The position numbers and the translations under genes are program-made. A DNA stretch of 64,000 nucleotides from an uncultured Phycisphaerales bacterium (GTDB lineage Bacteria > Planctomycetota > Phycisphaerae > Sedimentisphaerales > Anaerobacaceae), in NCBI GenBank assembly GCA_937927975.1, contig CALEZT010000188.1, forward strand, positions 1 through 64,000, read 5' to 3'. Below, piece by piece: positions 6,482 through 46,186 of this stretch. Below the pieces are notes generated by a model. That model saw only the letters and a program-made list of their open reading frames with translations, was not told the DNA's origin and searched no databases. Each line of letters starts with the position of its first letter. The first letter of the stretch is position 1.

Positions 6482-7195
6482 ATGGAGTCACCGCTGGGAA
6501 GATCGCAGATGGAACAAGCCAGGAAAGCCACTCGACTGGCCATCCGCGATTGCGGGCTGGCTGAGTATCGGGCGGTGTTGGCTTTGCAGCAGCAGTTGCA
6601 GGAGCAGCGGCGGGCTGGGGGGATCGGCGACACCGTGCTGGTTGTGGAGCATCCGCCGGTGATTACCCTGGGAGCGCACAAGAGCTCCAACAAGCTGCTC
6701 GCCTGCCCTGAGGACCTGGCCCGGCGGGGCATCGACCTGGTCGAGATCCGCCGGGGCGGCGGGACCACTGCGCATAATCCGGGACAACTGGTGTTCTATC
6801 CGATCCTGAACCTTCAGGAACGGCGGCTCGACATCAACGCCTACGTGCGGACTCTGGAACAGGTCGGGATCGACCTGTTGGCCGGGCTGGGCGTTGCGAG
6901 CCACTGCAAGAAGGGCTTCCCCGGCTTATGGGTCGGGCCGCGGAAGATCGCGTCCGTCGGCGTGCGGGTGTCGCGGTTCGTCACCTGCCACGGCATGGCG
7001 ATCAACATTCAGAACGACCTGAGCATCTTTGGGTGCATGGTCCCGTGCGGCCTGGACGGCGTAGCGATGACGTCCGCCCAGAAGGAGACGGGGCAGACTT
7101 ACGATATGAACAGGATCAAGGAGCAGTTGGCCGCTCTGCTTCATCGGCATTTGGGGCATGCGGCCTCGCAGAACTGCGGGACGGTGGAATCATGA
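6482..7195 (+). CDS. lipB: Octanoyltransferase (lipoate-protein ligase B)
   Basis: Transfers octanoyl groups from acyl carrier protein to lipoyl domains, the first step of lipoate synthesis. LipB motifs are clear: RRGGGTTAHNPGQLVFYP (RGGxxTxHxPGQ), the lysine in GPRKIASVGV, CHGMAINI, and the catalytic Cys in VPCGL. The length of 237 residues is normal. Two starts are possible: 6482, with a -10 box 6 nt before it (leaderless), or 6509, with a weak GGGAAG upstream. I favour 6482. The stop overlaps the lipA start (ATGA), so the two genes are translationally coupled. Confidence 0.92.
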   Translation: MESPLGRSQMEQARKATRLAIRDCGLAEYRAVLALQQQLQEQRRAGGIGDTVLVVEHPPVITLGAHKSSNKLLACPEDLARRGIDLVEIRRGGGTTAHNPGQLVFYPILNLQERRLDINAYVRTLEQVGIDLLAGLGVASHCKKGFPGLWVGPRKIASVGVRVSRFVTCHGMAINIQNDLSIFGCMVPCGLDGVAMTSAQKETGQTYDMNRIKEQLAALLHRHLGHAASQNCGTVES

Positions 7196-8055
7196 CGGAA
7201 CGGACGCGGAAACTGCCGCCGTGGCTCAAACGCCCCTGGCCGGCCGGCCACAGCTTTCAACACACCCGCGAGACGGTGGAATCGCTGGGCCTGGAGACCA
7301 TCTGCACCAACGCCAACTGCCCCAACCGCGGCGAGTGCTGGGGCCGTGGCACCGCGACCGTCCTGATCCTGGGCAACGTCTGCACGCGCAACTGCAAGTT
7401 CTGCTCCGTCGCCACAGGCAAGCCGCAGCCGCCCGACCCGACGGAGCCGGCGCGCCTGGCGGACATGGCCAAACGGATGGACATCAAGTATCTGGTCATC
7501 ACGAGCGTCAACCGGGACGATCTGCCCGACGGCGGCGCAGGCCAGTTCCGCGACTGCATCAACGAAGTTCGGCGGCAGTGCCCTGCCATGCGATTCGAGA
7601 TCCTCACGCCGGACTTCAGGGGCTGCACGGAACAGGCGCTGGAGATTCTCGCAGACGCCCTGCCGTTCGTGTTCGCGCACAACGTCGAGACCGTGCCCTC
7701 GCTCTACCCGGTGGCCCGCTCCGGCGGCGACTATGAGTACTCTCTGACCGTCCTGCAAGAAGCCCGCGACCGGTATGCCGGCGTTTCCACGAAATCCTCC
7801 ATCATGCTCGGCCTGGGCGAGAGCGACGTACAGGTCGAGCAGGTCCTTCATGATTTGCGCCGGGTCGGCTGCGACCGGCTCACCATCGGCCAGTATCTCA
7901 AACCATCGAAAGACTCGCTCGACGTGGTCGAGTACGTCACGCCCGAGAAGTTCGCCTGGTGGAAGGATCGTGCGACACAGATCGGCTTTGCCTGGGTCCT
8001 CTCATCTCCGTTTGCCCGCAGTTCCTACCTGGCCGAACAGGAAAACGCCCGATAA
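7192..8055 (+). CDS. lipA: Lipoyl synthase
   Basis: Radical SAM enzyme that inserts two sulfurs into the octanoyl group to make lipoate. The auxiliary cluster motif CTNANCPNRGEC (Cx4Cx5C) is at about residues 37-48, and the radical SAM motif CTRNCKFC follows at about 63-70. The C-terminal RSSY that binds the auxiliary cluster is present (ARSSYLAEQ). At 287 residues it is a full-length LipA. It overlaps lipB by 4 bp (ATGA). With lpdA nearby, the segment covers lipoylation and lipoyl turnover but lacks the lipoylated E2 or GcvH target. Confidence 0.95.
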   Translation: MTERTRKLPPWLKRPWPAGHSFQHTRETVESLGLETICTNANCPNRGECWGRGTATVLILGNVCTRNCKFCSVATGKPQPPDPTEPARLADMAKRMDIKYLVITSVNRDDLPDGGAGQFRDCINEVRRQCPAMRFEILTPDFRGCTEQALEILADALPFVFAHNVETVPSLYPVARSGGDYEYSLTVLQEARDRYAGVSTKSSIMLGLGESDVQVEQVLHDLRRVGCDRLTIGQYLKPSKDSLDVVEYVTPEKFAWWKDRATQIGFAWVLSSPFARSSYLAEQENAR

Positions 8056-8115
8056 CCGACACGCATCACGCAGGGCATTTCACGCATCGGGGTTTGCCGT
8101 TTGGAGCCCTGCGGA

Positions 8116-8150
8116 TTATTGCGTATGCTTTCCTCGGAGCCTTTGAAGTG
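8116..8150 (+). promoter_or_regulatory. Conserved upstream element of PilX-like module 1
   Basis: A stretch of about 35 nt that aligns with 10085-10120 upstream of the second module. Both end with TTTGAAGTG and share GTA-CTTT-CT-GG in the same order, with about 25 of 36 positions alike by eye. It ends 39 nt before the start codon at 8190. The lipA-to-8190 gap otherwise holds no gene. Confidence 0.45.
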
Positions 8151-8189
8151 CAGCACTACTGACGCATTACCTCATCGTTTGAGGGCAAC

Positions 8190-9581
8190 ATGAAACCGGT
8201 CAACAGCATCACCCACCATCAGCGGCAGGGCTCCGCACTCGTCCTCTCGCTCATCTTCCTCGCCATGTTCTCGGCGCTGGCCGCGGCCATGGCCGGCATG
8301 TCCGGCGCAAACATCCAAATTGCCGAGAGTCACCGCAAGGTGGACAACGCGCGAGCCTGCGCCGAATCCGGACTGGAAGTCATTCGCTTCTGGATGGACA
8401 AAGTGGAGATTTCCGGCACCACCGCGCCCGACCAGCGGTTTGCCCAGTTGACGTCGGACCTGCAGAGCAAGCTGACCAACGCAGGGATCACGAATCTCGT
8501 CCCGACCGCCACCAGTTCAACCATCGCGATCTCGAACGTGTCGGTCAACTCCGGCCTGGGGCAGAGCTTCTCGGCGCTGCTGACCAAGCTCGACAACGAC
8601 AACATCCGCGTCGATGTGACCGGCCATTACGGGTCCTTCAATCGAACGATCCGCTCGGCCTACGCCTTCGGCACGCGGGCCAACAACGTATTCGACTTCG
8701 GCGTGGCCTCCCGAGGCCCCGTATCCCTCTCGGGCAACGTCGAACTCGAAGGCGTCAACCTCCAGGTTGAGTCCAATGCCTATATCGAAAGCCTCAACAC
8801 TCTTCTGTCGCTGTCGATCATCGGCAATTCGCACATCGCCGGCAACGTGAAGATCGTCAATCCCCTGGCCATGGTCTATCTCCAGGGCGGCAAAGCAGGC
8901 ATCGGGGGCGAGACCGGCGAGGCGGCCATGAACCACGTCCAGATCGGCGTAGCGCCCTGCGAATTTCCCGAGATGGACCCGACCCCCTTCATTCCATACG
9001 CCACGCGAATCCTCACGGCGGCCGACAGCACCTCCGCTAACGCAACGTATGAGAACCTCAGGATTCCCCAAGGGATGAATCCGAGCTTCTCCGGGAACGT
9101 TGTTCTGAAAGGCGTCGTCTTCATCGAATCGCCCAACGTCGTCACCTTCAGCGGTGGCGTCGACATCACAGGAGTCATCGTCACCAATGGAGACCCCACG
9201 GACAACTCCGCCACCAACAAGCTCAAGTTCACCGGCAACGTGACAGGGCATCCCATCACGCAACTGCCGCAGGAGTCGAAATTCGCGGGTCTTCACAGCC
9301 AGATCGGCACGTTCATTATGGCCCCCGGCTTCCAGGTGGGCTTCGGAGGCAGCTTCAGCACCTTGAGCGGAGCCATCGCAGCCAACGGCATCGAGTTGTG
9401 GGGCAACGCCGGCGGCACGATCAACGGATCCATCGTGAACTATTCCGATGCCCCGATGACTCTCCAGGGCAACACGGACCTGTACTTCAACCGCTCGGGC
9501 CTCACGGAGGTCCCCGCCGGTTTCGTGCCGCAATTGGTGATGTTCTACAATCCCGCTTCCTATGCGGAGGTGGTCCTCTGA
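8190..9581 (+). CDS. PilX-like N-terminal domain protein with beta-helical body (module 1)
   Basis: A 463-residue protein whose N-terminus (QRQGSALVLSLIFLAMFSAL, then NIQIAESHRKVDNARACAESGLE) matches the PilX/pseudopilin N-terminal pattern: a short basic leader, one hydrophobic helix, then an Ala-rich helix ending in ESGL. PilX proteins are minor components of type IV pili; this placement in the envelope is an inference. The body from about residue 165 is rich in short GN, SG and GVV repeats (LSGNVELEGV, HIAGNVKI, FSGNVVLKGVVF), suggesting a right-handed beta-solenoid. GAGGG precedes the start. A 59-residue membrane protein follows 89 bp downstream. The whole arrangement is repeated at 10163-12399. 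No pilus assembly genes are nearby. Confidence 0.75.
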   Translation: MKPVNSITHHQRQGSALVLSLIFLAMFSALAAAMAGMSGANIQIAESHRKVDNARACAESGLEVIRFWMDKVEISGTTAPDQRFAQLTSDLQSKLTNAGITNLVPTATSSTIAISNVSVNSGLGQSFSALLTKLDNDNIRVDVTGHYGSFNRTIRSAYAFGTRANNVFDFGVASRGPVSLSGNVELEGVNLQVESNAYIESLNTLLSLSIIGNSHIAGNVKIVNPLAMVYLQGGKAGIGGETGEAAMNHVQIGVAPCEFPEMDPTPFIPYATRILTAADSTSANATYENLRIPQGMNPSFSGNVVLKGVVFIESPNVVTFSGGVDITGVIVTNGDPTDNSATNKLKFTGNVTGHPITQLPQESKFAGLHSQIGTFIMAPGFQVGFGGSFSTLSGAIAANGIELWGNAGGTINGSIVNYSDAPMTLQGNTDLYFNRSGLTEVPAGFVPQLVMFYNPASYAEVVL

Positions 9582-9670
9582 TGAAACCTTTCACACACGA
9601 TACGTCGCGATCCGCAGACACGGACCATTTCGGTTCAACTCCTCACTCGCGGGCAAAGGAGGAAACGCGT

Positions 9671-9850
9671 ATGCAGAAAACATCCTTCAGAACTCTCGCC
9701 CTGCTGCTGGAACTGTTCATCGCCGTGGTGTCCATCCAATACCTGGGCACGATCCGGTCCGCCAAGGCAAGCGCCTCCTGGCTTGGAGGCACTTGTGCGA
9801 CCGGCGCGTCCATCCTGGCGCCGGACGTCAACGACATGATGAAGACCTGA
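9671..9850 (+). CDS. Small single-span membrane protein, partner of PilX-like module 1
   Basis: A 59-residue protein starting at 9671 behind a very strong ribosome binding site (AAAGGAGG at 9656-9663). Residues 6-25 (FRTLALLLELFIAVVSIQYL) form a hydrophobic segment, followed by a short exported tail. It is a paralogue of the product at 12112-12399: both begin M-[QK]-[KR]-T-x-x-RTL-x-LL-x-EL and both follow a PilX-like gene. I do not recognise a named family. Conservation of the pair, position and binding site make it a real gene in my view. The role is unknown; a membrane partner of the PilX-like protein is a guess. Confidence 0.6.
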   Translation: MQKTSFRTLALLLELFIAVVSIQYLGTIRSAKASASWLGGTCATGASILAPDVNDMMKT

Positions 9851-10162
9851 TTCTCCCGCAGAGCGTCACAAGCTCCGCGACGGTATCGCCATGCCAAGGC
9901 CGGTTTCCCCGCTCGGGGAGCCGGCCTCAACGCCAGGCGCCGACGCCGCCCGCCCACGCCCCTCCTTGGTGCCACTCCTCCTTCGATGTCCTTGCCCCGC
10001 CGTCCTTTTCCTCAGGCCCGTGCCCCGTCGCGCACAGATGTTCAGCTCTGCCGTAATTTTCCGGATCGCTTTGCAGATCACGAGTTGTTCTGTACACTTT
10101 GCTTGGGAATATTTGAAGTGAGTCAAGCGAAGCAAGCGGGTTTCCGCCGAGAGGAAAAGAGA
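9851..10162. other. Intergenic region with strong hairpin
   Basis: No gene seen. A GC-rich hairpin lies at 9897-9927 (AGGCCGGTTTCCCCG, CTC, CGGGGAGCCGGCCT), a possible terminator of module 1 although no T-run follows. The 3' part carries the upstream element of module 2. Confidence 0.55.
10085..10120 (+). promoter_or_regulatory. Conserved upstream element of PilX-like module 2
   Basis: Counterpart of 8116-8150. It contains TTGTTC (10085-10090), GTACACTTTGCTTGGG and the shared end TTTGAAGTG (10112-10120), 42 nt before the start at 10163. It could be a promoter or activator site common to both modules. Confidence 0.45.
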
Positions 10163-12058
10163 ATGTCATCCCAACACCCAGTCCGCGGCATGCGCCGCGG
10201 GGCCGCGCTCATCCTGGCCATGGTCTTCGTCCTCGTGTTTTCGGCCCTGGCCGTCGCACTCGCGTCGTTCTCAGGGTCCAACATCCAGATCGCCTCCGGC
10301 CAGCACAAGGTGAACAAGGCGCTTCACGCGGCCCAGTCCGGGCTCGAGTGCGCCAAGTACCTCGTCAAGACGGTGACGACCAGCGCCGGTTGGCCCGCGC
10401 CGACCGACAAGAACTTCGTCACGGACGAGCAGGCCGACCTCGTGTGGGCGGCGCTGTGCCAGTACGCCCAGGACACCCGGATCGACGGCAAGACCGTGCC
10501 GGAACCGTCCGCCTTCGCCGGGGGCGTGGAACTCCTGATGCCGACCATGGATTTCGGCGACGGCAACGGCCAATTCACTCTGCGACTGTTTCGAAATGAC
10601 GATGACCCCCGCGTCATCCACATCCAGTCGACCGGCGCCGACGGAGGCGCGGTCCGTCGCGTCGCCATGACGATGAACGTCACCAAGGACCGCCAGGTCC
10701 TGGAATACGCGATCGCCACGCAGGGACGCATGTGGCTGACCGGCGACACCACCATCCACGGCAGCATCTACAGCTCGTACGGCCGCAAGTACAATTCCAG
10801 CGGAACGTCCTACAGTCTTCTGTCTCAGGCGCCGTTCAACATGACCAGCGACTCCCGAGTGGAAGGCACGATCAACACCGTCCTGAGCCACAGCGATATG
10901 GCGTCGCGGTCCTACCAGCTCGAGACGCTCACCGCGTCCAAGAAGGCCAAGTTCACTTTCGGCGCGACCGTCTATGACGAAGGCGGCAACGTCGTCACGG
11001 ACAGCTACGGCATCGTGGACGACGAAGGCTACATGCTCGATGCCGGCGGCGATCCGGTCTTCGACGCGGAAGGCAAACGGATTCCCGTGGACTTCGCCAA
11101 CCGCGTCTACAGCACAGCCGACGAGATCCAAGGCTACCACGAGAACATCAACTACGGACAGCCCCGTTCCGCCCAGGTGAACGGCATGCAAATCGGGGAT
11201 TACGACACTTCCTCGTACAAGAGCGCCATCTCCACGACGGTTCGGGCCGCATCGGCCTCGGTGATCGAAAATGGCGTCCTCGGGACCTCCGGCGTCAGCA
11301 CGGTCACCGAGTACTTCCCCCACGCCCCGCTGTCCAGCGGCGGCTACACCACCCGCTCGGGCAGCAGCCTGCCCCTGAAACGGCACATCTATGAGAACAA
11401 GACGATCCGCGACGTGGTCGTCGCCAAGGGCACCAACGCCCTGTTCAAGAACTGCACGTTCGAGGGCGTGCTGTACGTCGACACCAACTACAGCGGGCCG
11501 AGCGTCTCGCTTCCCTCGTCCTACACCAGTTCCACAATCAGCTCGTTCCTGTCCACGAGCAAGAACTACAACAACATCCGCTTCGAGAATTGCACGTTCA
11601 ACGGCGTCATCGTCACGAACACGCCGCAGGCCCTCAACAGCAACTGGTGGATGGGCAACAACCTGTACTTCACCGGCGAAGCGGCCTTCGAGAACCAGTC
11701 TTCGGTTCAGGAGGCGACGATCCTGGCGCCCCACTTCAACGTCAACCTGGGCAACACCAATCCCAACGCCAGCGAGAACAACGTCCTGACCGGCGCCATC
11801 GTGGGCGGTATCGTGGACGTTCGCGGCAACGCCCAGATCTACGGAACGATCATCTCGATGGCCGACACGTCGGCCTACAGCAGCGGCTACGTGACCAACA
11901 TCGGCGTCACCCTCGAAGACGGCGGCTCGGAAACCACCGAAGCCGGCGACGTCGGCGTCATCAGCATCACGCCGGATGAGGATACGATGCTTCCCAGCGG
12001 AATCAAGAGCCCGATCATCATCAAGCCGGACCCCAGGACGTATTGCGAAACCATATAG
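10163..12058 (+). CDS. PilX-like N-terminal domain protein with beta-helical body (module 2)
   Basis: A 631-residue homologue of the module 1 protein. The start at 10163 is behind AGAGGAAAAGA. The N-terminus has RRGAALILAMVFVLVFSALA, then NIQIASGQHKVNKALHAAQS and GLE, the same pseudopilin-like layout. The body carries beta-solenoid-like segments (TGDTTIHGSIYSSYG, FKNCTFEGVLYVD, FENCTFNGVIVTN, VDVRGNAQIYGTII), a pattern like polymer-forming or parallel beta-helix proteins. It is 168 residues longer than the first copy and clearly diverged, so the duplication is old. A small membrane protein follows after 53 bp. Function unknown; probably envelope-located. Confidence 0.75.
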   Translation: MSSQHPVRGMRRGAALILAMVFVLVFSALAVALASFSGSNIQIASGQHKVNKALHAAQSGLECAKYLVKTVTTSAGWPAPTDKNFVTDEQADLVWAALCQYAQDTRIDGKTVPEPSAFAGGVELLMPTMDFGDGNGQFTLRLFRNDDDPRVIHIQSTGADGGAVRRVAMTMNVTKDRQVLEYAIATQGRMWLTGDTTIHGSIYSSYGRKYNSSGTSYSLLSQAPFNMTSDSRVEGTINTVLSHSDMASRSYQLETLTASKKAKFTFGATVYDEGGNVVTDSYGIVDDEGYMLDAGGDPVFDAEGKRIPVDFANRVYSTADEIQGYHENINYGQPRSAQVNGMQIGDYDTSSYKSAISTTVRAASASVIENGVLGTSGVSTVTEYFPHAPLSSGGYTTRSGSSLPLKRHIYENKTIRDVVVAKGTNALFKNCTFEGVLYVDTNYSGPSVSLPSSYTSSTISSFLSTSKNYNNIRFENCTFNGVIVTNTPQALNSNWWMGNNLYFTGEAAFENQSSVQEATILAPHFNVNLGNTNPNASENNVLTGAIVGGIVDVRGNAQIYGTIISMADTSAYSSGYVTNIGVTLEDGGSETTEAGDVGVISITPDEDTMLPSGIKSPIIIKPDPRTYCETI

Positions 12059-12111
12059 CCTGCCGTTGAAGAAGGTGCCTATCAACAGAACTTCCTATGA
12101 GAGGGAGGACA

Positions 12112-12399
12112 ATGAAACGAACACCGATCAGAACACTCGTCTTGCTCGTGGAATTGCTCGCGGTCGTGGCGGCCTACCAGTTCATCGCCTGGAGCCCGCC
12201 GGCCACCGCTGCCCTGGTGTGGCTGGGCGACGACGATCCGAACGAGGTCCCCGACCCCAACGCGGTGGACGATCCACAGCCCGAGTGCATCGGGAGCGTC
12301 TCGTGGATCCAGCTCGACGACGAGCCTGAGGATCCCAACGCCCCGGAATCCGAGGGCGAACCCCAGCCGGAAAGCGTCTTCCGCCTGCCGGCCGCCTGA
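12112..12399 (+). CDS. Small membrane protein with acidic tail, partner of PilX-like module 2
   Basis: A 95-residue protein starting at 12112 behind GAGGGAGGA. Its N-terminus (MKRTPIRTLVLLVELLAVVA) aligns with the 59-residue protein at 9671. The tail is much longer and strongly acidic and proline-rich (DDDPNEVPDPNAVDD, EDPNAPESEGEPQPE). It sits 53 bp after the second PilX-like gene. Family not recognised. Being found twice behind a PilX-like gene suggests a functional pair. Confidence 0.6.
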   Translation: MKRTPIRTLVLLVELLAVVAAYQFIAWSPPATAALVWLGDDDPNEVPDPNAVDDPQPECIGSVSWIQLDDEPEDPNAPESEGEPQPESVFRLPAA

Positions 12400-12482
12400 G
12401 GTTCGCGACAAGGACCCTGGACGCTCTTCCGGAGCGTCCAGGCGGAGGCTCCTTGCGACATTGGCCCCTGCGCCGCTGAAGA

Positions 12483-12545
12483 GAACGCCCGGGACTCCGG
12501 TCTTCACAGAAAGACCGGAGCCCCCTGGCGTTCGGGCGTCGTTTT
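12483..12545 (+). terminator. Terminator after PilX-like module 2
   Basis: A long two-part stem: GAACGCC (12483-12489) pairs with GGCGTTC (12527-12533), and inside it CTCCGGTCTT pairs with AAGACCGGAG. TTTT follows at 12542-12545. A second hairpin at 12416-12442 (CCTGGACGCT with AGCGTCCAGG) lies between it and the stop codon. Confidence 0.65.
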
Positions 12546-12596
12546 CCGCATTTCCTCTCCCCAGACCATCATCCTTTTCCCACCCTCTCTTGCCCT

Positions 12597-12625
12597 TTGA
12601 CAGATCGAAGCGGATATGCTCTAAT
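12597..12625 (+). promoter_or_regulatory. Promoter of carB
   Basis: A perfect -35 TTGACA (12597-12602), a 17-bp spacer and -10 TCTAAT (12620-12625). The leader to carB is about 120 nt long and contains no recognisable riboswitch. Confidence 0.7.
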
Positions 12626-12754
12626 CCCGCCAGCCCGGTCAGGTCGCGACCTCGGCGTCCGACGTTCCGCTAAACGCCGGAAAGAGGTTCTGGGGACCAC
12701 CAGCGCGATGAATCGCGTCGGGACGCCCTTTGTCGTAACTTCAGGAGAAACCCA

Positions 12755-15700
12755 ATGCCCAAACGAACGGACATCAAGAAGGTACTGATCATCGGTTCCG
12801 GCCCCATCGTGATCGGCCAGGCCTGCGAATTCGACTACTCGGGCACGCAGGCCTGCAAGGCTCTTCGCAAGCTCGGCTACGAGATCGTGCTGGTCAACTC
12901 GAACCCGGCCACCATCATGACCGATCCCGGCATGGCCGACGCCACGTACATCGAGCCGCTGACGGTCAACGCGGTGACGGAGATCATCAAAGTCGAGCGT
13001 CCGGACGCCCTGCTGCCGAACCTGGGCGGCCAGACCGGTCTGAACCTGGCGTCGGAACTGGCCGCGGCAGGCGTTCTCGACCAATACGGCGTCCAGGTCA
13101 TCGGCGTGAAGCTCGACGCCATCAAACGAGGCGAGGACCGCCAGGCCTTCAAGGACACGATGCTGAGACTGGGCATCGACATGCCTCGCAGCGAGATCGC
13201 CTACAGCGTCGAGGAGGCCGAGAAGATCGCCGAGAAGCTGGGCTACCCGGTCATCATCCGTCCGGCCTACACGATGGGCGGCACCGGCGGCGGCGCCGTC
13301 TTCAACGTCGAAGAGCTGCGGACGATCGCCAGCCGGGGGCTGGATGTCAGCCTGGTCCACCAGATCCTCGTCGAAGAGTCCGTCTTGGGGTGGGAAGAAC
13401 TGGAGCTGGAGGTCGTTCGAGACTCCAAGGGGCACAAGATCACCGTCTGCTTCATCGAGAACGTTGACCCCATGGGCGTCCACACGGGCGACTCCTATTG
13501 CACCGCTCCCATGTTGACCATCGACACCGCCCTCCAGGAACGATTGCAGAAGTACTCGTACGACATCGTCGACGCGATCGGAGTCATCGGCGGCACGAAC
13601 GTCCAGTTCGCCCACGATCCCGCCACCGACCGGGTCGTCATCATCGAGATCAACCCGCGGACAAGCCGCTCTTCGGCGCTGGCTTCCAAGGCGACCGGCT
13701 TCCCGATCGCCTTCGTCTCGGCCCTGCTGGCGGCCGGGCTGACTCTCGACGAAATCCCCTACTGGCGCGACGGGACATTGGACAAATACACCCCCTCCGG
13801 CGATTACGTCGTCGTCAAGTTCGCCCGCTGGGCCTTCGAGAAGTTCAAAGGCGTCGAAGACCGCCTGGGCACCCAGATGCGCGCCGTCGGCGAAGTGATG
13901 AGCATCGGCAAGAACTACAAGGAGGCGTTCCACAAGGCCATTCGTTCTCTGGAGAACAGCCGCCACGGCCTGGGCTTCGCCAAGAACTTCAACAAGCTGT
14001 CCCTCGATCAGTTGATGTCGATGTTGACCTACCCCACCAGCGAGCGGCAGTTCGTCATGTATGAGGCCCTCCGCAAGGGCGCCAGCATCGACGCCATCTA
14101 CGACAAGACGCGGATCAAGCACTGGTTCATCCAGCAGATGGCGGAACTGGTCGCCCTGGAGGAGCAGATCCTTCAGCACAAGGGCAAGACGCTGCCCGAC
14201 CAACTCCTGCTGCAGGCCAAGAAGGACGGGTTCGCCGACAAGTACCTCGCCAAACTGCTCGGAGTCCCGGAGGCCCAGATCCGTGGCCAACGGATCAAGC
14301 TCGGCGTCACCGAAGCCTGGGACGCGGTCCCGGTCAGCGGCGTCGAGAACGCAGCCTATTACTACTCTACCTACAACGGCCCGGACAAGGTCCCCGTCAG
14401 CAACCGTCGCAAGATCATGGTCCTCGGCGGCGGTCCCAACCGCATCGGTCAGGGCATCGAGTTCGACTACTGCTGCGTCCATGCGGCCTTCACGCTCCGC
14501 GACGAGGGCTTTGAATCGATCATGGTCAACTGCAACCCCGAGACCGTGTCCACCGACTACGACACGTCGGACAAGCTCTACTTCGAGCCGCTGACCGTCG
14601 AGGACGTCCTGAGCATCTACGAAAAGGAAAAGCCCGAAGGGGTGATCGTCCAGTTCGGCGGCCAAACCCCGCTGAATCTCGCGATGGAACTGGCCCAGGC
14701 GGGCGTCAAGATCATCGGAACCTCGCCCGAGGCGATCGACCTGGCGGAGGACCGCGACCGGTTCCGCGTCGCGATCCGCAAGATGGGCATTCCTCAACCC
14801 GAGTCCGGCATGGCCGGCAGTCCGGAAGAGGCCATCAAGATCGCGGACCAGATCGGCTATCCGCTGATGGTGCGTCCCTCTTTCGTCCTGGGCGGCCGGG
14901 CGATGGAAGTCGTCCACGACGAGGAAATGCTCCGCCTCTACGTCGCCAAGGCGGTCGAAGTCTCGCCCGAACGTCCCATCCTGATCGACAAGTTCCTGGA
15001 GAACGCCACCGAGACCGAGGCCGACGCCATCGCCGACGGGGTCGACGCCTTCGTCCCGGCGGTCATGGAGCACATCGAGCTGGCGGGCATCCATTCCGGC
15101 GACTCGGCCTGCGTCATCCCGCCGGTGAGCATCGCGAAGAAACACCTCGACACGATCCGCGACTACACCCGCCGGATCGCGGTGGAGCTGAACGTCGTCG
15201 GCCTGATGAACATCCAATACGCCATCTGCAACGATGTGGTCTACATACTCGAAGCCAACCCGCGGGCGTCGCGAACGGTTCCGCTGGTGTCGAAGGTCTG
15301 CAACATCGGCATGGCCCGCTTGGCCGTCCAGTGCATGCTCGGCAAGAGACTCTCCCAACTCAATCTGACGCTAAAGAAGATCCCGCACTTCGGCGTCAAA
15401 GAGGCGGTGTTCCCGTTCAACATGTTCCCGGAGGTGGACCCCCTGCTCGGTCCCGAGATGCGATCGACGGGCGAAGTGCTCGGCATGGCGAACTCCTACG
15501 GCCTGGCGTTTTTCAAGTCGCAGCAGGCGGCCAAATCGGAGCTGCCCATCGAGGGCACCGTACTGATGACGGTGACGGACGCCGACAAAAAAGACGCCGT
15601 CACAGTGGCCAAGGAGTTCCAAAAGCTTGGCTTCCGGATCAAGGCGACGGAAGGCACCTGCAAGGGTCTGGCCGCCGGCGGCGTGCAGGCCGAGCCCATC

Positions 15701-15958
15701 CTCAAGATGTACGAGGGCCGGCCCAACATCGCCGACGCCATCAAGAACGGCGAGATCCAGCTCGTCATCAACACCCCCGCCGGCAAACTGAGCAAGACCG
15801 ACGACTCCTACATCCGCAAGACCGCGATCAAGTACAAGGTCTCGTACATCACGACGACCGCAGCGGCCGCCGCCGCGGTCAAGGGGATCGCCGAGACGCG
15901 GGCCAGCGGCGCCGCGCCCGTCCGCTCGCTTCAGAGCTACCACGCGGGAATCAAGTAG
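12755..15958 (+). CDS. carB: Carbamoyl-phosphate synthase large subunit
   Basis: Makes carbamoyl phosphate from ammonia, bicarbonate and two ATP for pyrimidine and arginine synthesis. The 1067-residue length is typical. The two ATP-grasp halves each begin with the family signature (IIGSGPIVIGQACEFDYSG near residue 11; VLGGGPNRIGQGIEFDYC near 557). EINPRTSRSSALASKATG and EANPRASRTVPLVSKV mark the two synthetase domains. The C-terminal MGS-like allosteric domain starts near residue 930. AGGAG precedes the ATG. The small subunit carA is not adjacent. A strong hairpin follows. Confidence 0.96.
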   Translation: MPKRTDIKKVLIIGSGPIVIGQACEFDYSGTQACKALRKLGYEIVLVNSNPATIMTDPGMADATYIEPLTVNAVTEIIKVERPDALLPNLGGQTGLNLASELAAAGVLDQYGVQVIGVKLDAIKRGEDRQAFKDTMLRLGIDMPRSEIAYSVEEAEKIAEKLGYPVIIRPAYTMGGTGGGAVFNVEELRTIASRGLDVSLVHQILVEESVLGWEELELEVVRDSKGHKITVCFIENVDPMGVHTGDSYCTAPMLTIDTALQERLQKYSYDIVDAIGVIGGTNVQFAHDPATDRVVIIEINPRTSRSSALASKATGFPIAFVSALLAAGLTLDEIPYWRDGTLDKYTPSGDYVVVKFARWAFEKFKGVEDRLGTQMRAVGEVMSIGKNYKEAFHKAIRSLENSRHGLGFAKNFNKLSLDQLMSMLTYPTSERQFVMYEALRKGASIDAIYDKTRIKHWFIQQMAELVALEEQILQHKGKTLPDQLLLQAKKDGFADKYLAKLLGVPEAQIRGQRIKLGVTEAWDAVPVSGVENAAYYYSTYNGPDKVPVSNRRKIMVLGGGPNRIGQGIEFDYCCVHAAFTLRDEGFESIMVNCNPETVSTDYDTSDKLYFEPLTVEDVLSIYEKEKPEGVIVQFGGQTPLNLAMELAQAGVKIIGTSPEAIDLAEDRDRFRVAIRKMGIPQPESGMAGSPEEAIKIADQIGYPLMVRPSFVLGGRAMEVVHDEEMLRLYVAKAVEVSPERPILIDKFLENATETEADAIADGVDAFVPAVMEHIELAGIHSGDSACVIPPVSIAKKHLDTIRDYTRRIAVELNVVGLMNIQYAICNDVVYILEANPRASRTVPLVSKVCNIGMARLAVQCMLGKRLSQLNLTLKKIPHFGVKEAVFPFNMFPEVDPLLGPEMRSTGEVLGMANSYGLAFFKSQQAAKSELPIEGTVLMTVTDADKKDAVTVAKEFQKLGFRIKATEGTCKGLAAGGVQAEPILKMYEGRPNIADAIKNGEIQLVINTPAGKLSKTDDSYIRKTAIKYKVSYITTTAAAAAAVKGIAETRASGAAPVRSLQSYHAGIK

Positions 15959-28690: not shown

Positions 28691-29182
28691 ATGGATTTGC
28701 TGTCGCTCATTCCGGATAACGTCACCGAAGTTCTCACGGCAATTCTGCGCTTCACCGAACTGCGCCGCCGGATTCTGCATGCGAACATCCACGGCGTGGA
28801 CGTCCCCGGATTCGTGCCCCAGGACATGCCTGTCCGGGAGTTCGCCGAAGTGCTCAACGACGCTCTGGCCGAGCATCTGCGCAGCCGTCGGCTTCTGTTC
28901 CGCGACACCACGAATATCACGTTCGGCCCCAACAGCTCCACGCGGGTCCGACCGGTGATCGACGAAGGCGCTCTTGCCCTGCTCGCGAAAAACCGGGATG
29001 AGTACATGGAACTCCAGGTCGGCAAGCTCCTGGAGAACGCGTTGAACCGCAAAGTGGCGATGGAACTGCTGGCCCAGAAGTGCGGCGCGTGCCCCAGCGT
29101 TGTGGAGTGGAGTGTGGATATGACGCTCGCCGGCGACAGCCCGGTCGAGAACTCATCGACGCAGTTCGACAAAGCCCAGTGA
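28691..29182 (+). CDS. flgB: Divergent flagellar basal-body rod protein FlgB
   Basis: A 163-residue protein resembling FlgB, a proximal rod subunit exported by the flagellar apparatus. The N-terminal rod motif appears as LRRRILHANIHGVDVPGFVP (consensus LxxRxxxLAxNIANxxTPGY), and the C-terminal half has the FlgB-like ELQVGKLLENALNRKVAMELL. It is about 25 residues longer than usual at the C-terminus and the rod motif is degenerate. The start at 28691 has GAGGGA six bases upstream, better than the ATG at 28685. flgC and fliE, which normally follow, are absent; flhG starts 23 bp after the stop. Its placement next to flhG and fliA supports the call. Confidence 0.65.
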   Translation: MDLLSLIPDNVTEVLTAILRFTELRRRILHANIHGVDVPGFVPQDMPVREFAEVLNDALAEHLRSRRLLFRDTTNITFGPNSSTRVRPVIDEGALALLAKNRDEYMELQVGKLLENALNRKVAMELLAQKCGACPSVVEWSVDMTLAGDSPVENSSTQFDKAQ

Positions 29183-29205
29183 CACGGAGGAGTTCGCGGC
29201 GGCGT

Positions 29206-30051
29206 ATGGAGAATCAAGCGCTCAATTTGCAGCAGTTGCCCGGCGTGCGGCGGCCTTCGGCCACGGTGCTGGCGATCACCAGCGGCAAAGGCGGGGTCGG
29301 CAAGACCAACATCGCGGCCAACATCGCCGTGTGCCTGGCCAACCAGAATAAGAAGGTGCTCCTGCTGGACGCGGATCTGTCGCTGGGCAACCTCGACTTG
29401 GTGATGGACATCCGCAGCAAATACAACATCTCGCATGTGATTAGCGGACATAAGCGGATGGAAGAAATTATTCAGCCCGGCCCCAAAGGATTGCGAGTCA
29501 TTTGCGGGGCTTCCGGTCTGGACCGCCTGGCGGACATCAGCGAGATCGAGCAGCGTCGTCTGCTCGACCACTTGTCCCTTCTCCAACAGGAAACCGACAC
29601 GATCCTCATCGACACCGCCGCCGGCATCTCCACCTGCGTCATCGGCTTCTGTCTGGCGGCCGACCACGTACTGGTCGTCACGACGCCGGAAGCGGCCGCC
29701 ATGGCCGACGCCTACGGCGTCATCAAGGTTCTGGTCCGAAAAAGATACGGCCAGCCCATCAGCCTCGTGGTCAATATGGCCCGCAGCACAGCCGAGGGCA
29801 AGCAGGTCTACCAGCGAATGGCGGACGTGACCAAGAAGTTTCTCCAAACGAATCTCTACTTCGCCGGGGTGCTGCTCAAGGATGAGCGGCTGTGCGACGC
29901 GGTCCGGGCTCGCAAGCCGGTCGTCCTCGCCTACCCCAAGGCCCCGATCAGCTCGTCTTTCGCCTCGCTGGCGGCGCGAGTCGCCGGCGCCAGGCTGGGC
30001 AACACCCTGGACGACAGTTTTTTCCGGAGAGTGATGCGATGGCTCAATTAA
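29206..30051 (+). CDS. flhG: FlhG/FleN-type MinD-like ATPase
   Basis: A 281-residue ParA/MinD-family ATPase controlling flagellar number and placement. The deviant Walker A SGKGGVGKTN is at about residue 25, followed by LLLDADLSLGNLDL, and IDTAAG is the Walker B region. The overall pattern (ANIAVCLANQNKKVLLLDAD; VTTPEAAAMADAYGVIK) fits FlhG rather than cell-division MinD. It sits between a flgB-like gene and the sigma factor gene, the usual setting of flhG. GGAGGA lies 14 nt before the ATG, somewhat far. FlhF is not in the window. Confidence 0.85.
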   Translation: MENQALNLQQLPGVRRPSATVLAITSGKGGVGKTNIAANIAVCLANQNKKVLLLDADLSLGNLDLVMDIRSKYNISHVISGHKRMEEIIQPGPKGLRVICGASGLDRLADISEIEQRRLLDHLSLLQQETDTILIDTAAGISTCVIGFCLAADHVLVVTTPEAAAMADAYGVIKVLVRKRYGQPISLVVNMARSTAEGKQVYQRMADVTKKFLQTNLYFAGVLLKDERLCDAVRARKPVVLAYPKAPISSSFASLAARVAGARLGNTLDDSFFRRVMRWLN

Positions 30052-30134
30052 AGTCCCGCCGCATCGGATCGATAATGGAATCTAGGAGATTGCGTGCCCG
30101 CGTATGGGACGTATTCGCTGGCAAGGATGAATGA
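30039..30134 (+). CDS. Possible 31-residue basic peptide between flhG and fliA
   Basis: A short frame starting 12 bases before the flhG stop codon and ending 65 bp before fliA. It reads MAQLKSRRIGSIMESRRLRA and ends DVFAGKDE, strongly basic in the middle. Overlap with flhG suggests coupling, but there is no ribosome binding site or known family. It may be chance. Confidence 0.25.
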   Translation: MAQLKSRRIGSIMESRRLRARVWDVFAGKDE

Positions 30135-30199
30135 ACTGTGAACATGGCGACTCGTCACGCCGCCCTTGAATGGAGTGTCAACCGCACCGGAGGCAATCT

Positions 30200-30994
30200 G
30201 TGAAGACCCACGCATCCAAGACCGCCACCTCGCTGAGCATCGAGGAGATTTGGACGCTCTTCCACCAGACGCGAGGCAGTCAGCACCGCAACCTGCTGAT
30301 GGAGCACTATCGGGACCTGGTTCGCTATGCCGCCGAGCGGCTCCACGCCAAGCTGCCCGACAAGGTCGAACTCGACGACCTCATCAGCGCCGGCACCTTC
30401 GGCCTCATGGATGCGATCGACGCCTTCGACCCCGCCCGGGGGGTCAAGTTCGAGACGTACTGCGCTCCGCGAATCAAGGGATCGATCCTCGACGAGCTTC
30501 GCAGTATGGACTGGGTCCCCCGCCTGGTCCGAGCCCGCGCGCACCAGCTCGCCAAAGCCACTCATGCGCTCGAAATGCACCTCGGTCGAAAACCCGACGA
30601 ACAGGAACTCGCGAGCGAGCTGAATATGGACATGGAGGAGTTCATCCGCCTCCAGCGGGACGCCAACGCCGCCAGCCTGGTTTCGCTCAACAACAAGTGC
30701 GGTGACGCTGAGGGCGAGAAGGACGTCTATGAAATCGACGTCATCAAAGACCACCGAAGCGAAGACCCCCTGCAGGAAGCCCAGAAACGCGACCTCAAGA
30801 GCCTCCTGACCAAGGGGCTCACCCGCGCCGAACGGCTGATTATCGTCCTGTATTACTATGAAGAGATGACGATGAAGGAGATCGGCGCGACGCTGGACCT
30901 GTCCGAGTCCCGAGTATCGCAGATGCATTCCTCCATCGTCCAGCGACTCAAAGCCCAGATGAACACTCGCAAGAAGGAATTCGCCGTCGAGTGA
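30200..30994 (+). CDS. fliA: Sigma-28 family RNA polymerase sigma factor (FliA/WhiG type)
   Basis: Sigma factor for late flagellar or motility genes, 264 residues. A GTG start at 30200 is chosen because GGAGG lies six bases upstream. Region 2 includes LVRYAAERLHAKLPDKVELD, DLISAGTFGLMDAIDAFDP and FETYCAPRIKGSILDELR, the classic FliA/WhiG signature, followed by RSMDWVPRLVR. Regions 3 and 4 follow, ending with MTMKEIGATLDLSESRVSQM. It is the last gene of the flgB-flhG-fliA islet and converges with folB. I found no FlgM anti-sigma gene. Confidence 0.92.
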   Translation: MKTHASKTATSLSIEEIWTLFHQTRGSQHRNLLMEHYRDLVRYAAERLHAKLPDKVELDDLISAGTFGLMDAIDAFDPARGVKFETYCAPRIKGSILDELRSMDWVPRLVRARAHQLAKATHALEMHLGRKPDEQELASELNMDMEEFIRLQRDANAASLVSLNNKCGDAEGEKDVYEIDVIKDHRSEDPLQEAQKRDLKSLLTKGLTRAERLIIVLYYYEEMTMKEIGATLDLSESRVSQMHSSIVQRLKAQMNTRKKEFAVE

Positions 30995-40955: not shown

Positions 40956-42269
40956 TCAGTCCTTCGGCCGTTCATCCACGACGCGTTTGGCCTTCCCCTC
41001 GTATACAGGCAACGATCCCGGTTCGTGCAACTCGACGCCGGGACTGATCGTGATCGAGGACCGCAGTTCCTCGACGATCCTGTGCTTGAGCGATTCCAGC
41101 TTGGAGACCTCGCCCAGGAACAGCTTCGGGTAGATCTCGACCTTCACGGTCAGCCGATCGAGGGCGCCCTTCTTGTCGACATGGATCTGGTAGTTCGTCG
41201 CCACCTCGGGGATCTTCATGATCTTCTCCTCGATCTGCGAGGGGAAGACGTTGACGCCGTTGATGATGAGCATGTCGTCGGTGCGCCCGAGAATGCGGGA
41301 CAACCGCCGGTGCGTGCGGCCGCAGTCGCAGCCTTGCGGATGCAGGAACGCCAGGTCTCGCGTGCGATATCGCAGGATCGGGGTCGCCCGACGGACCACG
41401 TTCGTCAGGACGACCTCGCCCTCTTGCCCATCCGGAAGTGGCTCGCCTGTCTTGGGATCGATGATCTCGACGATGAAGGCGTCTTCCCAGACGTGCATAT
41501 CCTTCTTGCAGACGCACTCGAAAGCGACGCCGGGACCGTTGAGTTCGCTCAGGCCGTAGGAGTTGTAGGCGTCGATGCGCAGGAGGTCCTGGAGCTTGCG
41601 GCGGGTATTCTCCGAGTGGGGCTCGGCGCCGATGAAGGCCTTGCGCAGAGCCAGATCCTTCAACTCGATGCCATCCTCGCCCAGCTTGGAGTGGATATGC
41701 AGCAGATAGCTCGGAGTGACATGCACGACGGTGGTCCGGAAGTCCTTCATCACCTGGATCTGCCGCTTCGTGTTGCCGCCCCCGATGGGAATGACGGTCA
41801 GGCCCACACGCTCGGCGCCGTAGTGAAGGCCCAGACCGCCCGTGAAGAGCCCGTACGTCATCATGTTCTGGAAAATGTCGCCGGGGCCGGCTCCGGTGGC
41901 GACGATGCTCCGCGCCAGCAGGTCCGTCCAGTTGTCGAGGTCCTGCCTGGCATAGTAGATGACGGTCGGAATGCCGGTCGTGCCGCTGGAGGAATGGACC
42001 CGCAGGACCTCGTTCATGGGCACGGCCAGATGCCCTTTAGGGAAACTGACCCGCAGATCGTCTTTCGTCGTGAACGGGATGCGGCGCAGGTCGCCGAGAC
42101 TCTTGATGTCGTCGGACGAGTTGACGCCGACCTGGCTGAGCCGCTTGCGGTAGAGATTGGTCTTGAGGGCCCAGCCGATCGTTTCCTGGAGCCGCTGGAA
42201 CTGGATCTGCTCGATCCGGCCCCGCTCGGCAGTTTCGATCTCTCTATTCCAAAAGGGGATGTCCATCAT
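40956..42269 (-). CDS. paaK: Phenylacetate-CoA ligase family enzyme 1
   Basis: AMP-forming arylacetate-CoA ligase of 437 residues. The adenylation motif HSSSGTTGIPTVIYY is near residue 92, with NSYGLSELNGPGVAFEC, LRYRTRDLAFL, GRTDDMLIINGVNVFPSQIE and the C-terminal EGKAKRVVD lysine region. It should interconvert aryl acetates and their CoA thioesters. It is the second of two paaK-ACT pairs in the iorAB cluster. A 35-bp gap from the upstream ACT gene holds an AT-rich sequence; no promoter is obvious. Confidence 0.92.
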   Translation of the reverse strand: MMDIPFWNREIETAERGRIEQIQFQRLQETIGWALKTNLYRKRLSQVGVNSSDDIKSLGDLRRIPFTTKDDLRVSFPKGHLAVPMNEVLRVHSSSGTTGIPTVIYYARQDLDNWTDLLARSIVATGAGPGDIFQNMMTYGLFTGGLGLHYGAERVGLTVIPIGGGNTKRQIQVMKDFRTTVVHVTPSYLLHIHSKLGEDGIELKDLALRKAFIGAEPHSENTRRKLQDLLRIDAYNSYGLSELNGPGVAFECVCKKDMHVWEDAFIVEIIDPKTGEPLPDGQEGEVVLTNVVRRATPILRYRTRDLAFLHPQGCDCGRTHRRLSRILGRTDDMLIINGVNVFPSQIEEKIMKIPEVATNYQIHVDKKGALDRLTVKVEIYPKLFLGEVSKLESLKHRIVEELRSSITISPGVELHEPGSLPVYEGKAKRVVDERPKD

Positions 42270-42304
42270 CAGAAATCAACAATCCGAAATCGTGAACTCA
42301 ACTC

Positions 42305-42736
42305 TCAAAGGCCCTCGATCTCCTTCTCGGTGACCACGTGGATCTTCTGCTTGGCCAGGATCTGCTGGGCGAAGTCAGTGTCCTCGAACCGCATCACGAG
42401 CAGGGCCTTGTCGCTGAACTTCTCGACGAACCCATACATGTACTCGATGTTCACGTCGTGCTCGGACAGGATCTTGAGGATGGAGGCCAGGCCGCCGGGC
42501 TGGTCCGGAACCTCGATCGCCACGACGTCCGTGAAGTTGGCGACGAACTGGTTCTCGCGGAGCAGTTTGATGGCCGCTTCGGACTTGTCCACGACGACCC
42601 GCAGGACGCCGAAGCTCTCCGTCTCCGCGATCGTCAACGCGCGGATGTTCACGCCGTGGCCGCCCAGGAGCGAACACACGTCGTACAGCCTGCCCTTGCG
42701 GTTCTCCAGGAACACCGATATCTGTGTGATCTTCAT
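42305..42736 (-). CDS. Tandem ACT-domain protein 2
   Basis: A 143-residue tandem ACT protein (ISVFLENRKGRLYDVCSLLG in the first domain, IEVPDQPGGLASILKILSEH in the second). It is similar throughout to the ACT protein at 40510-40944. It begins 12 bp after the paaK2 stop codon. The placement repeats the paaK-ACT arrangement and suggests amino-acid control of the aryl-CoA pathway. Confidence 0.86.
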   Translation of the reverse strand: MKITQISVFLENRKGRLYDVCSLLGGHGVNIRALTIAETESFGVLRVVVDKSEAAIKLLRENQFVANFTDVVAIEVPDQPGGLASILKILSEHDVNIEYMYGFVEKFSDKALLVMRFEDTDFAQQILAKQKIHVVTEKEIEGL

Positions 42737-42748
42737 GTGCAGCCCCCT

Positions 42749-44050
42749 CTACAGAGTTCGCTTGTCCACGATTCGCTTGGCCTTGCCCTCGCTGCGCGCG
42801 ATGGTCTTGGGCTCCACCAGCGTCACCTTGACGCCGATCGAGAGCACGTTCTCGATTTCCTTGCGGATCTTCTCCCGAATCACGTTGAGATGCTTGATCT
42901 CGTCGGAGAAGAACCTCTGTTCGACCTCCACCAGGACCTCGACCTCGTCGAGCTTGTGCGCCTGGCGGTCGACGATGATCTGATAGTGCGGCTGCGTCCC
43001 TTCGATCCCGACGAGCACGTGCTCGATCTGGGACGGGAACACGTTGATGCCGCGGACGACGATCATGTCGTCGGTCCGGCCCTTGATCTTGCTGATCCGA
43101 GGGCTGGTCCGGCCGCAGCGGCACTTGTCGTATCGGATGCTGACGATGTCCCGCGTTCCATAGCGAATCAGCGGGATTCCTTGCTTCGTCAGCGTCGTGA
43201 TGACCAGTTCGCCCGATTCGCCCTCCGGCACCTCCTCGCGGGTCTTGGGGTCCAGGATCTCGGGATAGAACACGTCGCTGAAGACGTGCAGGCCGTCCTT
43301 GTGATGGCATTCCTGTGCGACGCCGGGGCCGATGATCTCCGACAGGCCGTAGATGTCCGTCGCGAGCATGTTCCATGCGTTCTCGATCTCCCGCCGCATC
43401 GACTCGCTCCAGGGCTCGGCGCCGAAGACCCCGATTTTCCAATTGCCCTTGGTGGGATCGATGCCCAGCGTCTTGGCCTCCTCGGCCATGTACAGCACGT
43501 AGCTGGGCGTGCAGGCGATGATCCGCGGCTTGAAGTCCTGCATGAGCTTGAGCTGGCGAGCGGTCTGGCCCGACGAGGTCGGGAGAATGCGAAGGCCCAT
43601 TTCGAGGGCCCCGTAGTGAGAGCCCAGGCCGCCGGTGAATAGGCCGTAACCGTAGGCGATCTGGATCGTGTCGCCCGGGACGGCCCCTGCGCAGCAGAAG
43701 GCGCGGGCCATGACATCGCCCCAGAGCTTCACGTCATCTTTCGTGTATCCGACGAGGGTCGGGTTGCCGGTGGTGCCGCTGGAGACGTGGATCTCCGTGA
43801 TCTGGTCCTGCGGCGCGGAGAACAGGCCGTACGGATAGTTGTCCCGCATGTCCTCTTTGGTGGTGATCGGCAGCCGCTTGATGTCGTCGATGGACTTGAT
43901 CTGGTCCGGCCTGACCCCGGCGGCGTCGAGCCTTTGCCGGTAGACGGCGCATCCGTTGTAGATGTAGGGAATCAGCTTCCTGAGATAGCCCGATTGCAGC
44001 TCCTTGAGATCCTCGCGGGCCGCACACTCGACGTTCTCTTTCCAGATCAT
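42749..44050 (-). CDS. paaK: Phenylacetate-CoA ligase family enzyme 2
   Basis: A 433-residue paralogue of the ligase at 40956-42269. Motifs: VSSGTTGNPTLVGYT, DIYGLSEIIGPGVAQEC, IRYGTRDIVSIRYDKCRCGR, GRTDDMIVVRGINVFPSQIE and SEGKAKRIVD. The start overlaps the iorB stop codon (ATGA), so translation is coupled to the oxidoreductase. Because IOR produces aryl-acetyl-CoA, this ligase can release arylacetate with energy recovery or activate arylacetate for reductive carboxylation. The direction cannot be read from sequence. Confidence 0.92.
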   Translation of the reverse strand: MIWKENVECAAREDLKELQSGYLRKLIPYIYNGCAVYRQRLDAAGVRPDQIKSIDDIKRLPITTKEDMRDNYPYGLFSAPQDQITEIHVSSGTTGNPTLVGYTKDDVKLWGDVMARAFCCAGAVPGDTIQIAYGYGLFTGGLGSHYGALEMGLRILPTSSGQTARQLKLMQDFKPRIIACTPSYVLYMAEEAKTLGIDPTKGNWKIGVFGAEPWSESMRREIENAWNMLATDIYGLSEIIGPGVAQECHHKDGLHVFSDVFYPEILDPKTREEVPEGESGELVITTLTKQGIPLIRYGTRDIVSIRYDKCRCGRTSPRISKIKGRTDDMIVVRGINVFPSQIEHVLVGIEGTQPHYQIIVDRQAHKLDEVEVLVEVEQRFFSDEIKHLNVIREKIRKEIENVLSIGVKVTLVEPKTIARSEGKAKRIVDKRTL

Positions 44051-44538
44051 GATTGACCCATCTTCCTTCCGTCCAGGAACACTCTCTTGTTCTCTTCGAC
44101 GCCTTTGTTCTTGAAGACCGTCTCGATGGCCTTCATCCAATGCTCTTCCTTGATCGACAGCTTGGCGGAGAGCACCCCGACCAGACACGTGTTGACGCCC
44201 CGCGGATTCGCGACGGCCTGGGCGACCTTGTCGAGGTAGCCGATCAGATCGATGCCGTCCTTCTTCAGAAAGACGCTGAGCCTCGGATGCTCTTCCTGGT
44301 AGAAGCAGACCAGGACGTCCGCCCCGCCGGTCGGGACCAGGGGCGAGAAGACCCGCTTGCCGAACCGCACGTGCGACTCCACGGAGCCGCCCCGCTGCGC
44401 CATGCCGTGGACCTCGGATTTCTTCACGTGATAGCCCGCGTACAGGGCCGCCCAACTGCACAACTCGGAGGCCGTGAGGACCCCCTGGCCGCCGATTCCG
44501 CCGAACGTGACGCTGTAGATCTTGCTGTTGCTGGGCAT
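44047..44538 (-). CDS. iorB: Indolepyruvate:ferredoxin oxidoreductase, beta subunit
   Basis: Gamma-domain subunit of the 2-oxoacid:ferredoxin oxidoreductase for aromatic pyruvates. The 163-residue protein has TFGGIGGQGVLTASELCSWA, KKSEVHGMAQRGGSVESHVR and NTCLVGVLSAKL, the IorB hallmarks. It is somewhat shorter than the usual 190-200. It starts 2 bp after the iorA stop and overlaps paaK2 by 4 bp, forming a tight operon. With IorA it makes aryl-acetyl-CoA from aromatic 2-oxoacids, or the reverse. Confidence 0.9.
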   Translation of the reverse strand: MPSNSKIYSVTFGGIGGQGVLTASELCSWAALYAGYHVKKSEVHGMAQRGGSVESHVRFGKRVFSPLVPTGGADVLVCFYQEEHPRLSVFLKKDGIDLIGYLDKVAQAVANPRGVNTCLVGVLSAKLSIKEEHWMKAIETVFKNKGVEENKRVFLDGRKMGQS

Positions 44539-44540
44539 GC

Positions 44541-46094: not shown

Positions 46095-46103
46095 AGTCGT
46101 GTG

Positions 46104-46132
46104 ATTATAAGGCGATTCGCCGGTGGATTCAA
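46104..46132 (-). promoter_or_regulatory. Strong promoter of the ior-paaK operon
   Basis: Minus strand: TTGAAT (46132-46127), exactly 17 bp, TATAAT (46109-46104). The ATG at 46094 follows after only 9 nt with no ribosome binding site, so the mRNA is likely leaderless or nearly so. Confidence 0.72.
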
Positions 46133-46186
46133 GGAAAACCCGCCGGCGAATCGCTCGCAATCAACACAATCTCGCACGCGAGACGG

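Follow-up and report, generated by a model that had tools for sequence, protein, structure and literature searches.

A 64,000-nucleotide stretch of the genome of an uncultured Phycisphaerales bacterium (contig CALEZT010000188.1; hereafter the window) carries two genes for large PilX-like proteins, each followed by a gene for a small protein, and raises the question of what such a pair does where no pilus assembly genes are found nearby. A first-pass annotation of the letters read the arrangement as two duplicated modules of an undescribed envelope or surface-fibre system. Here we argue that the two large proteins, PilX1 and PilX2, are probably minor pilins at the tip of a type IV pilus, the assembly operon of which would lie elsewhere in the genome, and we propose that the small proteins are exported and act as partners of the PilX tip. 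On this view a known machine is present in a variant arrangement and includes one apparently undescribed component, and the observation is more general than the window alone could tell.

All four open reading frames (ORFs) of the two proposed units are present, on the plus strand between lipB–lipA and carB: pilX1 (8190..9581; 463 amino acids), the gene for small protein 1 (9671..9850; 59 amino acids), pilX2 (10163..12058; 631 amino acids) and the gene for small protein 2 (12112..12399; 95 amino acids). In the mechanical ORF list pilX2 spans 9986-12058, with a 5′ end that is too long; we take its start to be position 10163, directly ahead of the PilX_N segment. Upstream lies lipA, which encodes lipoyl synthase (7192..8055, plus strand), with lipB ahead of it. 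Downstream, also on the plus strand, is an ORF (12755..15958) that we take from its sequence to be carB, for the large subunit of carbamoyl-phosphate synthase; it is the downstream neighbour in the nearest relatives too. A Pfam scan of 30 further ORFs, a selection of those in the window, matched a family in 27 and none in 3, and returned no pilus family, in agreement with the earlier remark that assembly genes are missing from the neighbourhood.

The sequences and predicted folds of both large proteins resemble those of minor pilins. PilX2 matches the PilX_N family (PF14341) at 31.5 bits, above the cut-off of 25.5, and PilX1 falls just under it at 24.4 bits; PilX1 orthologues in six related genomes (G001, G002, G003, G005, G006 and G007) exceed it. 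Judged from sequence, the PilX_N segment is without the Glu5 of pilins, and the proteins are strongly acidic. The predicted models (PilX2, predicted local distance difference test 85.1 and predicted template modelling score 0.80; PilX1, 87.8 and 0.77) show a pilin module with an inserted beta-solenoid, an ectodomain of about 400 residues, as in a ComZ-like tip pilin. ComZ (6qvi) is the best Foldseek match in the PDB for each (PilX2, E 2.9e-9, probability 1.00; PilX1, E 1.5e-8), with poor whole-chain superposition. In both models a single long strand comes last, behind the solenoid; this agrees with ComZ, whose solenoid is likewise inserted ahead of the final strand. The link in sequence is weak (profile E 0.033, top of 177,635 sequences). 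PilX1 scored 13.3 bits against the Verru_Chthon cassette protein A family (TIGR02600), whose cut-off is 332.3.

The evidence on operons and machinery comes from the genomes of relatives rather than from the window's own, and most of these genomes are metagenome bins. Among 7,997 candidates scored, 694 were homologous to PilX2 at E ≤ 0.001. A scan of named genomes gave 62 pilX loci, mostly from Phycisphaerae and Sedimentisphaerales and all Planctomycetota by title except one 'uncultured bacterium' (L028); among viral contigs, a scan gave 57 pattern matches and 0 confirmed PilX2 relatives. The 62 loci are of two kinds. At 13 operon-kind loci pilX adjoins at least one of pilB, pilT, pilC, pilV and pilW, and none is accompanied by lipA, lipB, carB or lon. 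Here the relatives of pilX2 lie in operons of the type pilM-N-O-B-T-C-V-X-W; in the 12 that include pilC the order is C-V-X-W ten times, C-V-W-X once (L057, with V-W-X at L057:3438-5027) and C-V-X-X-W once (L060, with the two pilX genes in a row at L060:6579-9560), and one of the C-V-X-W operons (L059) carries a further pilX behind pilW. At the other 49, displaced-kind loci, no pilus gene was found beside pilX. The usual upstream neighbour is lipA, in 29 of 49, many of the others being cut short; six loci show 6–8 kb of upstream sequence and no lipA (L026, L036, L041, L046, L054 and L058), so there is at least one further displaced site. By an N-terminal profile, 22 of the 49 have a PilX1-like gene beside pilX2 on the same strand, and L003 adds one cut by the contig start.

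We then asked what stands at the operon site where pilX is displaced. Pilus operons were fetched from relatives with PilT as bait and read for up to 3.8 kb behind pilC; an operon counted as readable with at least 1.2 kb there, and we set aside 7 stretches truncated at the end of a contig and 6 that lack pilC. Among displaced-kind genomes 38 operons were readable, and no PilX was found behind pilC in any of them, so that in these 38 the operon site is empty. Directly behind pilC come pilV and then pilW in 35 of the 38, and in the other three (L132, L144 and L145) the motif recognised just one pilin. Searches of the 62 genomes with a PilX2 profile likewise list no copy at the pilus operon for these 38. 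Absence from a single metagenome bin is weak evidence; the same order in 38 is less so. Because the same gene family sits in the pilus operon elsewhere, and that operon lacks pilX in genomes of the window's kind, the pair likely completes the pilus from a distance.

This alternation between sites bears on what the first-pass annotation had proposed. A fibre or envelope system of PilX-like and small membrane proteins, independent of known pili, could claim the stand-alone site, the promoter-like elements of its own and a dedicated small protein conserved in position. It is nevertheless highly improbable: the same family occurs in pilus operons elsewhere, the operon is without pilX where the gene is displaced, no pilus assembly gene was found beside displaced pilX, and the models are ComZ-like. 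The annotation had also allowed for ordinary PilX minor pilins inside complete pilus loci, and this holds by half, since the proteins do look like minor pilins and yet, in this clade, are encoded outside the pilus locus.

The machinery that a displaced pilin would need is present in relatives. A PilT orthologue was found in 23 of 23 related genomes in one set and in 35 of 39 in another, and PF00437 ATPases and the ComEC family each in 23 of 23. The PilD-like prepilin peptidase that the annotation had suggested looking for elsewhere in the genome turned up as an A24 peptidase in all 23 (E ≤ 0.001), in 21 of them above cut-off, mostly in frames of about 400 residues. Matches to PilB/GspE-type ATPases number 9 to 22 per genome (G001–G023), far above the need of one pilus and one secretion system. 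The pair might instead be GspK-like tip pseudopilins of a type II secretion-like system, with the small proteins as its exported factors or substrates. We regard this as distinctly unlikely: across genomes the family is located now at the displaced site, now in one particular operon in which a PilT-like ATPase gene is next to pilC, and the GspK cut-off (NF037980, 130 bits) is far from reached by the two PilX proteins (21.9 and 23.1 bits).

The two units do not look like a recent tandem copy. In a quick tree of 85 proteins, in which the program flagged long branches, PilX1 forms one side of a branch with a Shimodaira–Hasegawa-like approximate likelihood ratio (SH-aLRT) support of 97, which speaks against recent duplication of the two-gene module for the large genes; PilX1 and PilX2 appear to be old paralogues. 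Recent duplication of the small genes is possible, the first 40 residues being common to both. Fourteen of the 15 operon copies fall on the PilX2 side, and that of L060 beside PilX1. Of the operon copies, four from Planctomycetales branch off outside all other PilX2 sequences, nine group in a single clade within the displaced ones, and that of L052 lies beside L044 and L046. The simplest story, for which support is mixed, is that pilX was in the operon first, was then displaced and returned once or twice.

A displaced gene may also have been free to change its job. On this account the displaced copies took another function, for instance as an adhesin on the cell surface, and the pilus made from the operon has no need of PilX. 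PilX1-like genes do stand alone elsewhere, with no pilus operon gene noticed beside them (L094:6372-7733, L095:7707-9068, L096:1482-2870, L097:1113-2501 and L099:986-2542), three PilX-like genes follow in a row at L012, L020, L049 and L053, and, although the PilX2 profile finds nothing elsewhere in 9 of the 13 operon-kind genomes, it finds a second copy in each of the other four (G015, G053, G055 and G059). Against it, conservation of PilX2 is high in the C-terminal half both inside and outside the operon, and 0 of 38 displaced-kind operons hold a second pilX; we consider a change of function unlikely.

The small proteins share the start M-[QK]-[KR]-T-x-x-RTL that had been noticed (MQKTSFRTL in small protein 1, MKRTPIRTL in small protein 2) and are 40% identical across a 40-residue alignment. 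Neither has a match above cut-off in Pfam or NCBIfam; a Trypan_PARP match (E 0.038; 14.4 against 100 bits) was set aside as low-complexity chance. They had been called membrane proteins, and a hydrophobic core is indeed there, but their sequences look like those of exported proteins, with A-x-A ahead of [VLI]WL: AKASA|SWL followed by a short variable tail in small protein 1, and ATAA|LVWL followed by an acidic tail rich in DPN and PE in small protein 2. These signal-peptide calls come from our own hydrophobicity rule rather than from a signal-peptide predictor.

Position is what ties the small proteins to pilX. We counted as companions short ORFs within 120 nucleotides (nt) behind pilX that have a charged start and a hydrophobic core, and then asked for an acidic remainder. 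Behind displaced pilX2 a signal-like ORF follows in 44 of 48 cases, and in 42 of the 48 the remainder is acidic as well. The exceptions are L002 (a run of N; the profile finds the gene), L019, L049 and L050, without an ORF, L027, whose ORF is not acidic, and L036, whose ORF is probably spurious. By comparison, 98 control gene ends gave 11 signal-like ORFs, 6 of them acidic, and all 6 were pilV behind pilC. Behind operon pilX the same rule was positive in 10 of 13, every one a pilin (pilW); it found none in L032, L033 and L057, the pilW of L033 exceeding its length limit. Behind PilX1-like genes 8 of 28 were positive, 6 of the window-clade type and 2 short and probably due to chance, and only 1 of the 28 had an acidic companion. 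Of 15 genomes searched with a profile of the window's small proteins, 11 of its own clade had matches, 18 in total; each of the 18 lies directly behind a pilX gene, two less clear cases having been checked. The genomes of L012, L013, L020 and L053 had no match. The suggested pairing is thus specific, even as the sequences barely align between clades (small protein 2 has 9 homologues at E ≤ 1).

Whether these ORFs make a working product is a separate matter. The non-synonymous rate (dN) is below the synonymous rate (dS) over the whole small ORF in every pair listed (for example 0.025/0.202 for L016–L017, 0.054/0.248 for L014–L015 and 0.235/0.681 for the window and L006), which indicates constraint at the protein level. 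Type 2 tails, those of small protein 2 and its counterparts, are constrained in most pairs; the figures for L002 are void, its row running through an N stretch into carB. For type 1, that of small protein 1, six pairs with the window give a dN/dS of 0.19–0.41 in the first 37 residues and 0.46–1.25 in the tail. This wide drift slightly lowers our confidence in the main reading, and type 1 was seen only in the window's clade (7 loci and 1 more). Both facts suit the idea that the small ORFs give no working partner, type 1 especially being a signal-peptide remnant or a translation-coupling leader that lies near pilX by chance or for regulation, an idea compatible with PilX1 and PilX2 being tip minor pilins. 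We think it somewhat doubtful, given that type 2 and its counterparts lie behind pilX2 in those 42 loci across deep branches and that a position kept while the sequence drifts argues for a kept product.

Two further ideas about the small proteins were dropped. A membrane-buried glutamate (the E of RTLxLxxELL) replacing the pilin Glu5 was rejected as a general idea because it is absent from L005, L007, L008, L055 and the other clades. A role as an acidic mimic of DNA, protecting a PilX that binds DNA, is not favoured because PilX itself is strongly acidic. At the other end of the chain, Y-x-E lies close to the C-terminus in 81 of 85 PilX proteins (SYAE in PilX1, YCE in PilX2) and a final glutamate ends 27 of 43 small proteins (L036 set aside), the window's own two not being among the 27; both kinds of protein tend to an acid end.

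The element upstream of both units that the annotation had pointed to was recovered as TTTGSA, TAYRCT, 15–16 nt and GAAGT. For pilX1 the predicted element (8100..8149, plus strand) has a −35-like TTTGGA, a −10-like TATGCT (8124-8129) and GAAGT (8145-8149); for pilX2 (10070..10119, plus strand) it has TTTGCA, a −10-like TACACT (10093-10098) and GAAGT (10115-10119). The GAAGT box starts 45 nt ahead of the ATG in pilX1 and 48 nt ahead in pilX2. Scanned as TA[TC][AG]NT-N6..26-GAAGT, the pattern occurs upstream of 24 of 71 non-operon pilX-like genes and is missing from the other 47. Mononucleotide shuffles give 1.2 of 71, and the pattern lies ahead of 3 of 251 other ORFs of at least 300 amino acids and of 0 of 15 pilus-operon pilX genes. 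We predict from this a sigma-70-type promoter with a kept 5′ element. A genome-wide regulon was rejected, as over 12 genomes the promoter plus GAAGT pattern matched 25 times and its reversed control 28 times; pilX sites account for 3 of the 25 (G002, G007 and G008), though other pilX sites escape the strict pattern. The one well-formed extra copy looked at has no pilX beside it (L093:4217-4267; G004:C1:8216-8266). Over 7500-13000, Rfam returned only one snoRNA match, at 22.5 bits against a gathering score of 60, so that the 5′ element matches none of the known RNA families.

A displaced tip could work as follows. Each pilX would be transcribed from its own sigma-70-like promoter, and PilX, once trimmed by the prepilin peptidase, would join PilV and PilW, start the fibre and end at its tip, with the beta-solenoid pointing outward as a contact surface for DNA, a glycan or another substrate. 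Export via Sec is predicted for the small proteins, which may act in the periplasm; there the acidic one would bind PilX2 and hold or cap it, a service required after pilX left its place beside pilV and pilW. More tentatively, and with the odds somewhat against it, the small acidic exported proteins could be an undescribed, dedicated and fast-evolving part of the type IV pilus tip complex, one that arrived with the displacement of the ComZ-like tip pilin, took the place of pilW behind pilX and keeps the beta-solenoid held or capped while the tip is still being assembled.

As for the job of this pilus, natural competence is plausible because ComEC is present in all 23 genomes and lies near the prepilin peptidase in 20 of them (within 8 kb on the same contig; G001–G023), which suggests that a competence-peptidase neighbourhood has been kept. 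PilX, being acidic, shows no sign that it would bind DNA, and a role in attachment to surfaces is equally likely.

Elsewhere in the window, a ParA-like ATPase gene is followed by one for a sigma-70-family factor with regions 2-4 (29080-30994), presumably an FlhG–FliA-like order and perhaps a flagellar control pair, and two AMP-binding ligase genes (PF00501 with PF14535) adjoin a gene for a thiamine pyrophosphate-dependent oxidoreductase (40956-46160).

Judging by the open-licence literature, the locus is apparently not in print. The reading given here explains a stand-alone PilX pair in the little-cultured Phycisphaerae and Sedimentisphaerales of the Planctomycetota as the missing piece of a pilus operon, and yields a rule for annotation: where a pilC-pilV-pilW operon is without pilX, a displaced pilX should be looked for, often behind lipA. 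It also brings to light tiny proteins, predicted to be exported, that sequence searches miss because of their poor alignment and that are recognised by position alone. Should their place of action be the pilus tip, a new type of pilus component would have been found in them.

The closest known proteins are minor pilins of the PilX/GspK type (PF14341, NF037980), with which the pair shares the PilX_N segment seemingly without Glu5 and, in ten relatives, a gene between pilV-like and pilW-like genes; they differ in the large beta-solenoid ectodomain, in the displacement of the gene to lipA–carB and in staying below the GspK cut-off. PilY2 of Pseudomonas aeruginosa is, like the companions, a small protein whose gene neighbours those of minor pilins, within the minor pilin cluster, and has another gene order and partner. 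ComZ of Thermus thermophilus has been proposed to be the pilin at the tip of the competence pilus, and its pilin module has a large beta-solenoid, resembling those of ice-binding proteins, inserted ahead of the last strand; comZ adjoins the pilin genes pilA1–pilA3, and ComZ binds PilA2 (PMC6561018). The PilX models likewise place a solenoid within a pilin module, classic pilin motifs miss both proteins, and PilX-bearing relatives have ComEC. In contrast to comZ, the window's pilX genes neighbour a non-pilin small ORF, a pilin neighbour being found in the operon relatives, and the PilX proteins are acidic. PilB and PilC of Streptococcus sanguinis are modular type IV pilins with an extra module (von Willebrand factor A or lectin-like) grafted behind the pilin module (PMC8179133). 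PilX would share with them a bulky module on a pilin module, expected at the tip; in PilX the module is instead predicted to be inserted, and behind the gene stands that of a small companion with predicted export.

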